Shown here: in pieces, positions 32,132 through 34,907 of the stretch | Numbering within the stretch: position 1 is the first letter of the stretch | Layout of the letters: the number at the start of each line of letters is the position of its first letter | Assembly: GCF_000313565.1 (NCBI RefSeq) | Contig: NZ_HE578927.1 | Span: 106,334 to 170,333 of the forward strand | DNA length: 64,000 nt | Direction: 5' to 3' | Origin: Dielma fastidiosa | Lineage (GTDB): Bacteria; Bacillota_I; Bacilli_A; Erysipelotrichales; Erysipelotrichaceae | Notes under the pieces: generated by a model | Told to the model about the DNA's origin: nothing | Seen by the model: only the letters and a program-made list of their open reading frames with translations | Database searches by the model: none | Program-made: the position numbers and the translations under genes

Positions 32132-32152
32132 ATATACTTAAACATAAAATAA

Positions 32153-32170
32153 GACTGACAGCTGTCAGCC
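32153..32170 (-). terminator. Hairpin downstream of the small membrane-protein gene
   Basis: Minus-strand GGCTGACAGCTGTCAGTC is a near-perfect palindrome followed by TTATTTTATG. The T tract is interrupted. Confidence 0.6.
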
Positions 32171-32180
32171 CTGTTCATTA

Positions 32181-32717
32181 TTAACTTTCTAATTGAAATT
32201 GTTCAACCAGCTTTCTTGACCGATTGAAAGCAATTAAATATAAAACCGCAAATACTAAAGATACGATGATACAGATCAGTGACAGGATTGGAATAAAGAG
32301 TACAAGATAAGTCAATATTGTAAACATTGCCCGTACCTTCCACATATACATTAACCGTTCAGCCGCTAAATCTGTTTGGCGGTTTGTTTCCATTTCCTTA
32401 ATACCATAGGTAATCATGTAAGTGCTGTAAAGATTGCCAGCTACGATAAGGCCATTGATTATCATCACTAATATCACACTGTTTGTATCGCCAAAGCCTA
32501 AAAAATCAGCGATATAAAACAGCAGTGAAATGATAGTCATGACGATTAAAGCCGGCTTTGCTTTCACAAAGCATTCACTTTCGCCGCGCAGTTCAGCAAC
32601 CCCTGACAGCATCAGCAGATAGCCGACAAAATCAGGAATCAGTCCCAATTTGGAACTGCCAAAAGTTAAAGTAAAATTAAAAAATACAAACAGCATGCCC
32701 CAGAATATTTTTTTCAT
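32181..32717 (-). CDS. Multi-pass membrane protein of unknown function
   Basis: A 178-residue protein from ATG 32717 (GAGG lies 9 bases upstream; ATG 32726 is closer to it). Five hydrophobic segments are visible, the first with FFNFTLTFGSSKLGLIPDFVGYLLMLSGV, a pattern seen in small Firmicute membrane proteins where the loop GLIPDFVGYLLM is conserved. No enzyme motif. It sits between the two-component system and the peptide/regulator cassette but has its own ribosome site and terminator. Function unknown. Confidence 0.65.
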   Translation of the reverse strand: MKKIFWGMLFVFFNFTLTFGSSKLGLIPDFVGYLLMLSGVAELRGESECFVKAKPALIVMTIISLLFYIADFLGFGDTNSVILVMIINGLIVAGNLYSTYMITYGIKEMETNRQTDLAAERLMYMWKVRAMFTILTYLVLFIPILSLICIIVSLVFAVLYLIAFNRSRKLVEQFQLES

Positions 32718-32814
32718 GTTCATCAACCTCGCATAATAATTATAAATTAATTATTAAATACCCACAAGAGATATTAAAGTTCATATTTTATCTGTAAGCA
32801 TTACAATTTGTGAA

Positions 32815-33225
32815 CTATGGAGCGGCTTCCAAGTCGATTCCCAGCTGGATGCCGTACATCAGAAACTTGCCGTTCACATATATCTCCTGATAGAAGATTT
32901 CCGCATCCACGTAATAATATCCTACTATTTCTCTAGGTGTAGCGCTATTGGTGGAATAGACGATGACCACATGACCGGCCGTTGGGTGAGTGAATTTATA
33001 TTTTATTCTTTCAAAAGCATAGACTGTTCCATCGTCCAATTTTCTGGCACCGTGTACATGTTCACTTGGCAAATCCACAAGCTGCGCTTCCATTTCTTCT
33101 CTGGTTAGTATTTCAAAGCTGGCCAGAAACTGTTCGTGTGCATATTTTCTAACGCCGATAACGAGCAGTATCATGATCAGCAAAACTGCCAATATAGCAC
33201 ATAGCCGCCGGATTTTCTTTTTCAT
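32815..33225 (-). CDS. Membrane-anchored small secreted protein
   Basis: A 136-residue protein; start ATG 33225 lies 2 bases past the stop of the preceding gene. A single hydrophobic helix (about residues 9-26) with Lys/Arg before it anchors the protein with its C-terminus outside. The outer part has ARKLDDGTVYAFERIKYKF and VVIVYSTN and a YYVD strand, suggesting a small beta domain. No family recognised. It is the last gene of a probable four-gene cassette with the peptide and HTH-TPR regulator. Composition is less AT-rich than the regulator gene, so it may have joined the cassette separately. Confidence 0.6.
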   Translation of the reverse strand: MKKKIRRLCAILAVLLIMILLVIGVRKYAHEQFLASFEILTREEMEAQLVDLPSEHVHGARKLDDGTVYAFERIKYKFTHPTAGHVVIVYSTNSATPREIVGYYYVDAEIFYQEIYVNGKFLMYGIQLGIDLEAAP

Positions 33226-33227
33226 GG

Positions 33228-33449
33228 CTATTTCCGATTGAAGAAGGCTTCTAAATGCGAAATAATTCCACAGCCAATCACAAACCATAAATCGCTTGGC
33301 TCAAAAAACGTAAAAATTAATATCAGTACAATGCCATCCACAACTGCCAGCAAAATTAAGTTTGCTTTTTTTGAAAGTTTCAGCATACAGCTTATAAATA
33401 ATACAATAATATAAATGTCTTTAAGAAAACTATAAAAATATCGGTTCAT
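33228..33449 (-). CDS. Small membrane protein of the peptide-regulator cassette
   Basis: A 73-residue protein with two hydrophobic segments (about 11-26 and 29-63, possibly split as two helices) and a short basic C-terminus. GGAGGGATATC gives a strong ribosome site. It lies 15 bases after the HTH-TPR regulator stop. Small membrane proteins next to RRNPP regulators can be immunity or export factors; no evidence picks between them. Confidence 0.55.
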   Translation of the reverse strand: MNRYFYSFLKDIYIIVLFISCMLKLSKKANLILLAVVDGIVLILIFTFFEPSDLWFVIGCGIISHLEAFFNRK

Positions 33450-33464
33450 GATATCCCTCCTTAA

Positions 33465-34688
33465 TTAAACTTTGGCTTTTATTTTTAGATAATAAATTAA
33501 TTCTTTTGTTTCATTACTTTTTTCTAAAATCTCAATTAAAATAGTAAGATAAAAATCTAAAACACCGGCCTTCTTCTCTATTAAAAATTGTTCATAAACC
33601 TTTTTAGCTTGATCAAGTGTTCTCTTTCTTGGATGTTCATTACGGTCTTTAACTAAATAACTAAATAATATAAATCTGTCCCGATAAATTTTGTCCTTTT
33701 CTAATTGCTTATTATTCAATATTACTTTATATGCACTTTTATAATCTTCTAATTTATATAAACACCATATTTTATATAATATAGCATTACCATTTTTAGG
33801 ACTTAATTTCTCTGCTTCTTTTATTAATTTAATAGCAGCTTCATGATCTCTCATTAAAATATTAACCCATGCCATATTTCTAAATATTATTGCTTTAATA
33901 TTTCGTTCTTCTTTAGTGTCTTTTAAAGCTTTTAACCATTCATTCAATTTATTTAAAGCAAGATCATATCTTCCTAACCTTATATATATATTACCGATTT
34001 GTAAATCACATTTACCTGAGCGTAAGTATGAATAATATTTATCAAATATATATTTTGCTTTTACTAAGTAATCATAAGCTTCAAAATATTGCTCACAGCT
34101 GTGAGCAATGATTCCATAATGGTAATAAATCATACCCATATTTTTCTCGTCATTAGCAATTATTAATGCTTCTTTAAGCAGCTTCATTGCTGAATCATAC
34201 TGCTTCATAGAATGCTTTCTTACTGCTCTATATTCGATAAACAATTGAAAATCTATCATACTATGATTAATTGTTGCTTCAATTTCATTCTCAAGTTTGA
34301 TCACATCATCATAATTAGCTAAAACATTAACTATATATTCAATTAGGAGTATTTTATAGTAATTACTACTAATAACATATCTTTCTCTATTGCTTTCAAT
34401 CAAATCCAAATAATAATTATTATTATTTCTCAAATAGAATATAGATTCCTTAAACTCAGCCATTAACGCATTTATTTCATCGTCAATAATATCTGTATTA
34501 GAAAAATCCACCATTAATACATTTTCTATTTTATTTATGTTTTGTGCAGTAGGTTTTTCTGTACCACGTTCAAATTTACTAAGACGCACAAATGATATAC
34601 CAGTTGCTTCACTTACAGCTTGTAGTGAATAACCCTTATATTTTCGGCAATTTTTAATTTGATAACCAATAGTATTTCTCATAAACAT
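33465..34688 (-). CDS. XRE/TPR (RRNPP-like) regulator
   Basis: A 407-residue protein. Residues about 8-60 form a Cro/C1 helix-turn-helix (KNCRKYKGYSLQAVSEATGISFVRLSKFE). The rest is a run of about eight helix pairs with TPR spacing (DSAMKLLKEALIIANDEKNMGMIYYHYGIIA; YFEAYDYLVKAKYIF; RYDLALNKLNEWL; DHEAAIKLIKEAEKL; DYKSAYKVI). This is the architecture of the PlcR/NprR/Rgg/ComR group, whose TPRs bind secreted peptides. No ribosome site precedes ATG 34688, which lies 7 bases after a small secreted-peptide gene, so translation is probably coupled to it. Confidence 0.85.
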   Translation of the reverse strand: MFMRNTIGYQIKNCRKYKGYSLQAVSEATGISFVRLSKFERGTEKPTAQNINKIENVLMVDFSNTDIIDDEINALMAEFKESIFYLRNNNNYYLDLIESNRERYVISSNYYKILLIEYIVNVLANYDDVIKLENEIEATINHSMIDFQLFIEYRAVRKHSMKQYDSAMKLLKEALIIANDEKNMGMIYYHYGIIAHSCEQYFEAYDYLVKAKYIFDKYYSYLRSGKCDLQIGNIYIRLGRYDLALNKLNEWLKALKDTKEERNIKAIIFRNMAWVNILMRDHEAAIKLIKEAEKLSPKNGNAILYKIWCLYKLEDYKSAYKVILNNKQLEKDKIYRDRFILFSYLVKDRNEHPRKRTLDQAKKVYEQFLIEKKAGVLDFYLTILIEILEKSNETKELIYYLKIKAKV

Positions 34689-34695
34689 TTATAGA

Positions 34696-34854
34696 TTAAT
34701 AGCCATATATTTCATCATCAAATAACTGAATATGATGATGAGTACAATTTGCACCCTTTTCCCCACAATAATCTGTATGAATATGTGCACAATTTTCAAC
34801 AACACAGAATAATGATAATAAGCACGTAAGTAATAAGCAATAAAGTTTTTTCAT
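34696..34854 (-). CDS. Secreted Cys/His-rich 52-residue peptide, candidate signal precursor
   Basis: A 52-residue ORF from ATG 34854 with GGGAG about 10 bases upstream. A signal peptide (KKL start, Leu/Cys-rich core, residues 1-21) is followed by a likely cleavage near ENCA. The mature part of about 30 residues has Cys 22, 30 and 37, His 24, 26, 39, 40 and 41, and an acidic aromatic end (FDDEIYGY). It lies 7 bases upstream of the RRNPP-like regulator, in the same direction. The Cys/His arrangement could bind a metal. No homologue is recalled; a short secreted metal-binding protein is the main alternative. Confidence 0.6.
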   Translation of the reverse strand: MKKLYCLLLTCLLSLFCVVENCAHIHTDYCGEKGANCTHHHIQLFDDEIYGY

Positions 34855-34878
34855 AACATTAGTTCTCCCGTTTCTATA

Positions 34879-34907
34879 ATTTTTAAACAAAATAAAAATA
34901 ATGTCAA
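34879..34907 (-). promoter_or_regulatory. Probable promoter of the peptide-regulator cassette
   Basis: Minus-strand -35 TTGACA (34907-34902) and -10-like AAAAAT (34884-34879), spacer 17. A second TTGACG lies further upstream, so control may be complex. Confidence 0.45.

Follow-up and report, generated by a model that had tools for sequence, protein, structure and literature searches.

A conserved Cys/His propeptide and its adjacent HTH-TPR regulator probably form an undescribed family of cell-to-cell signalling systems in Erysipelotrichales

The window studied here, a 64,000-nucleotide stretch of the Dielma fastidiosa genome, carries a gene for a small secreted Cys/His peptide located just upstream of a gene for an HTH-TPR regulator. 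We propose that this pair is an RRNPP-type system, made of an exported peptide and a cytosolic receptor, in which the C-terminal tail of the peptide would serve as the signal, and we put the probability of this reading at about 0.72. Such pairs probably constitute an undescribed family of cell-to-cell signalling systems in Erysipelotrichales. Directly observed are the gene pair, its conservation, the selection on the peptide, and the predicted fold of the receptor.

Results

The locus comprises the following features (window positions, strand, description).

34879-34907, minus: promoter-like TTGACA-17-AAAAAT 5' of the peptide gene (consensus match only)
34864-34869, minus: ribosome-binding site GGGAGA of the peptide gene (from sequence)
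34696-34854, minus: gene of the 52-aa secreted propeptide, MKKLYCLLLTCLLSLFCVVENCAHIHTDYCGEKGANCTHHHIQLFDDEIYGY (19-member family)
34792-34854, minus: signal-like N-terminus, residues 1-21, MKK plus hydrophobic stretch (from sequence; helix 2-16 predicted)
34732-34791, minus: Cys/His core, residues 22-41, CAHIHTDYCGEKGANCTHHH, with HxHxxxCG...C as the family-conserved part
34699-34731, minus: C-terminal tail IQLFDDEIYGY, candidate mature signal (family [VI]xP pattern; putative for the window copy)
34699-34722, minus: last 8 residues FDDEIYGY, perhaps the mature signal
33465-34688, minus: gene of the 407-aa HTH-TPR regulator, RRNPP-like receptor (second ATG at 34682)
33228-33449, minus: gene of a 73-aa membrane protein, 15 nt past the regulator (no family found)
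32815-33225, minus: gene of a 136-aa membrane-anchored protein, MKKKIRRLCAILAVLL..., whose start adjoins the end of the 73-aa gene (no family found)
32181-32726, minus: gene of a 181-aa membrane protein, possibly the last of the operon (no family above chance)
32151-32172, minus: terminator-like hairpin 3' of the 181-aa gene (pattern match only)

The arrangement reported in the preliminary description, a secreted Cys/His peptide 7 nt before an HTH-TPR regulator with two small membrane proteins after it, is present. The ORF of the 136-aa protein spans 32815-33288, with the ATG at 33225 as its likely start. Because promoter-like sites are common in the window (31 found versus 21.8 expected), the one at 34907-34879 is weak. 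The three Cys and five His previously counted in the mature part are right only if cleavage falls just before C22, and the tail of the window peptide has an L where the family pattern has a P. The peptide has no family in Pfam, NCBIfam, PHROGs, or PADLOC, a search for known RNA elements found none, and the core as a fold was rejected on account of a low-confidence model (pLDDT 61).

The D. fastidiosa genome (3.6 Mb, 95 contigs) encodes four further regulators of the same kind, three of which are preceded by a peptide of the same design (CTHVHNEDCGPDGVNCTHEC...VQPLGDEHVPY, CTHVHTEECGENGINCKHEC...VTLLNDEHAPN, and CIHIHSSDCGYGSGKCTHRC...IQPKQDENPKF), and no such peptide ORF was found in front of the fourth, L003. 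This amounts to five receptors and four pairs with four different tails in a single genome. Peptide profiles were run on 316 Erysipelotrichales genomes and on a phylum sample of 392 genomes, and 19 peptides were found. In each case (19/19) the peptide gene immediately precedes that of a homologous regulator with the same orientation, so that the pairing exceeds chance; in the comparison across related genomes proposed earlier, the peptide is thus conserved and always beside the regulator. The two genes overlap slightly at one extreme and are about 85 nt apart at the other. At one of these loci, L020, a transposase-like gene (IS200/IS605 type by eye, about 2150-2680) splits the regulator behind the peptide gene. 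In the phylum sample, no peptide matched outside Erysipelotrichales at E 1e-4; the weak profile matches L024-L026 were set aside as segments of long proteins. A DNA pattern was also scanned through about 85,000 GTDB species, and since it demands an MK start and CTH it is a partial net. Most of its matches were chance or other proteins, and the true ones came only from Traorella massiliensis, other Traorella, an uncultured Erysipelotrichaceae bacterium, and Clostridiales bacterium CHKCI006, each again followed by a regulator. A phage or plasmid origin was rejected, the regulator having no match in 50,697 phage records or in a plasmid search.

The family peptides share a charged and hydrophobic N-terminus (an export signal as judged by charge and hydrophobicity alone), a core in which HxHxxxCG is followed further on by another Cys, and a variable C-terminal tail. 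Nearly every aligned peptide retains two His and two Cys, L035 being without the second His; the other Cys and His are lost in L008, L020, L022, and L023, yet the HxHxxxCG...C residues remain, and across the family the core is better conserved than the tail. The tail carries [VI]xP in 11 of 18 peptides, and [VIAN]xP stands exactly 8 residues from the end in 8; none of 5,000 shuffles reached either count, in a test inflated by the kinship of the sequences. Between two Traorella species, the peptide gene shows 18 synonymous codon changes against 6 non-synonymous ones (dN 0.067, dS 1.04, dN/dS about 0.06), and the peptide is under purifying selection. No amino acid change falls in the core in this comparison, and the last eight residues hold three of the six. 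Moreover, distances between tails correlate with those between TPR domains (r 0.48) better than distances between cores do (r 0.20). This agrees with a receptor that reads the tail, but shared descent, which inflates this test as well, could also produce the trend.

The regulator consists of an XRE-type HTH (HTH_3, residues 11-60) followed by TPR repeats. Its predicted structure (pLDDT 91) has as best solved matches Rap (Z 27.6), NprR (Z 25.8), and AimR (Z 22.6), with PlcR also listed, and eukaryotic TPR proteins score high too (LGN, Z 22.4). A profile built from 17 regulators aligns with NprR throughout its TPR domain (positions 61-408, E 1.7e-16). By this prediction the regulator has the fold of cytosolic RRNPP receptors, a TPR domain with an N-terminal HTH, in agreement with the RRNPP-like assignment made earlier. 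With NprR numbering anchored by W167 and H201 as named in PMC4970707, N269, an Asn in 15 of the 17 regulators, aligns with NprR residue 275. Rap, PlcR, and PrgX require an asparagine in the TPR groove to anchor their peptides (PMC3601992); since Asn at that position is common in other TPR proteins, the alignment is support and not proof. Separately, the HTH match is weak or missing in the peptide-linked regulators L018, L027, and L021 (genomes G068 and G063), which look as if they were drifting to Rap-like receptors without DNA binding.

No Shine-Dalgarno sequence was found before the regulator start in the window. Translational coupling to the peptide gene, as originally suggested, is plausible there and at loci where the two genes touch or overlap, but elsewhere it is opposed by a ribosome site between the genes (L008 and L019) or a hairpin (L019, L005, and L004). 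These terminator-like hairpins, located between the peptide stop codon and the regulator, could set the amount of peptide above that of receptor.

In a quick tree, one clade of 33 regulators contains 17 with the peptide and 16 without it, and some of the latter are neighbours of a paired regulator (L101 and L100). On a distant branch, nine HTH-TPR regulators (L146, L150, L151, L160, L116, L145, L159, L158, and L147) are preceded by secreted peptides of other kinds, which mostly contain Cys and for the most part occupy the same position, with cores such as CVLEYNEDG...KC, ECECHCEDC...CPCH, and CTINKDGECEC; three of these peptides have a similar tail (VVPYGSKENDPKK, KIDPLEGKYDPPKG, and AVPYGRCD...). 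To judge from their sequences, these loci appear to be several further undescribed pairs.

The genes near the pairs vary between loci, and the secreted, membrane, and export genes among them are candidate targets. Behind the pair at a Traorella locus lie genes for a membrane protein, for an ABC ATPase that best matches lactococcin-972-type exporters (with a score under the curated cut-off), and for a small secreted protein. The secreted protein behind the L004 pair is related to one near a Traorella pair (29.6% over 108 aa, E 2.5e-8), and the latter shares its first part with another secreted protein. Related secreted proteins lie near three pairs of two genera (L162 11905-12339, L165 8560-9003, and L168 9928-10641) and show an [IV][IT]P[YF]A step close to where the mature part probably begins. 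The L005 pair is followed by a 188-aa secreted protein (L163 8192-8758, minus strand), which contains a hydrophobic segment and has Cys in its end part, and then by a 53-aa membrane protein (L163 8025-8186, minus strand), with a similar 58-aa membrane protein further on; these could be a bacteriocin with immunity proteins. A perfect palindrome, TTCACGTGAA, lies 70-80 nt before two Traorella peptide genes (L015 and L019); found upstream of these two peptides only, it was dropped as a shared operator.

Discussion

Based on these observations, we infer the export, processing, import, binding, and regulation steps of the proposed system, and its targets, as follows. The peptide and receptor genes would be transcribed as one operon, and the propeptide would be exported via its N-terminal signal, after which proteases would free a C-terminal tail of about 8-11 residues (IQLFDDEIYGY in the window). 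The Cys/His core would act as the pro-region between signal and tail, with a possible role in folding, in protease recognition, or in metal or disulfide chemistry. The freed tail would be re-imported by an oligopeptide permease; the window's genome encodes four OppA-type binding proteins (SBP_bac_5), a match that does not imply substrate specificity. In the cell, the HTH regulator would bind the tail in its TPR groove and would then switch the operon that encodes it, together with nearby genes whose products are secreted, located in the membrane, or involved in export.

Several observations count against this reading. The tail in the window is without the family Pro, and the better conservation of the core means that the core could be the working part. 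About half of the main-clade regulators are without such a peptide next to them, eukaryotic TPR proteins also score high as structural matches, and three regulators paired with core peptides have a weak HTH match or none. Regulator homologues lacking an adjacent secreted ORF, which the preliminary description had named as an argument against the pairing, do exist for this share; known RRNPP receptors are often alike, an adjacent propeptide being present for 40 to 100% of them depending on the subfamily (PMC9765709, Table 2). As far as its sequence can tell, the conserved HxHxxxCG...C is compatible with either a metal site or a disulfide, and in a metal- or redox-gated variant the core would bind zinc or another metal, or form an extracellular disulfide, thereby deciding processing or activity, so that the pair would report the metal or redox state. 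This variant draws on the near-complete retention of two His and two Cys while other Cys and His are lost, and on the two Traorella species compared, whose peptides are identical in the core but differ in the tail. We nevertheless judge it unlikely: related regulators have Cys peptides without the His core, which means that receptors of this family do not in general need the core, its structural model is of low confidence, and no metal genes were recognised beside the pair.

The peptide might alternatively be an end product, such as a small bacteriocin or a surface or adhesion peptide, that the regulator controls without being its receptor, as hinted at by the bacteriocin-like export genes after some loci (the lactococcin-972-type ATPase, below cut-off) and by mutually related secreted proteins. 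The strict adjacency of one peptide and one regulator, the peptide-binding receptor type of the regulator fold, the variable tail at a fixed offset, and the presence of secreted peptides with other cores before related regulators all make this quite improbable. A cis-acting leader, in which the small ORF would act on the transcription or translation of the regulator and the peptide itself would be irrelevant, is suggested by genes that touch or overlap at many loci, by the window regulator without a ribosome site, and by the hairpins in three junctions; it is hard to reconcile with the strong protein-level selection (dN/dS about 0.06) and with a secreted architecture common to distant genera, and we give it very little credence.

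Within the RRNPP-type reading, the pair resembles several known systems and differs from each. With NprR-NprX of the Bacillus cereus group it shares an HTH with a long TPR domain and an adjacent propeptide, and the alignment places an Asn, a residue common at this point in TPR proteins, at position 275, while here the propeptide is upstream in 19/19 and has a Cys/His core. In Bacillus, nprX lies downstream of nprR. The NprX-contact residues N306 and D309 of NprR are not kept in the family alignment, and neither the downstream propeptide nor the retained NprX contacts that mark the NprR subfamily were found. The Rap proteins of the Rap-Phr systems (Bacillus) are the closest solved folds (Z 27.6) and are receptors for short pheromones; they are without a DNA-binding HTH, and phr is downstream of rap. 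AimR of the arbitrium system matches the TPR fold (Z 22.6), but AimR-AimP is phage-borne. In Qsr-Qsp of Clostridium acetobutylicum, where the active peptide AEPTWGW has a conserved Pro (PMC7376267), several HTH-TPR/propeptide pairs also occur per genome; there, the peptide gene comes after the regulator and no Cys/His core is described. In PlcRa-PapRa of B. cereus, the propeptide gene papRa likewise precedes plcRa, the gene of an HTH-TPR receptor, and the pheromone PapRa7, CSIPYEY, includes both a Cys and a Pro-aromatic step (PMC3519770). It differs in a 93-aa PapRa with an internal signal, in the short TPR domain of the PlcR type, and in having no HxHxxxCG...C core reported.

These comparisons correct two points of the preliminary description. 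The upstream peptide gene is a known arrangement (PMC3519770), RRNPP propeptides being found 'immediately upstream or downstream' of the receptor (PMC9765709), and Cys is not absent from known short pheromones, as PapRa7 has one. The novelty lies instead in the Cys/His core conserved within the propeptide and in a receptor family not described before. A literature search covering few subscription journals found no paper on RRNPP-type signalling in Erysipelotrichaceae or on the peptide motif; a bare listing in the RRNPP_detector study (PMC10075063) is possible.

The predicted tails can be synthesised and are directly testable. If gating by a metal or a disulfide were true, one secreted peptide would be both an environmental sensor and a cell-to-cell signal. 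With five receptors and four distinct pairs in one genome, these systems would give Erysipelotrichales a set of private signals.
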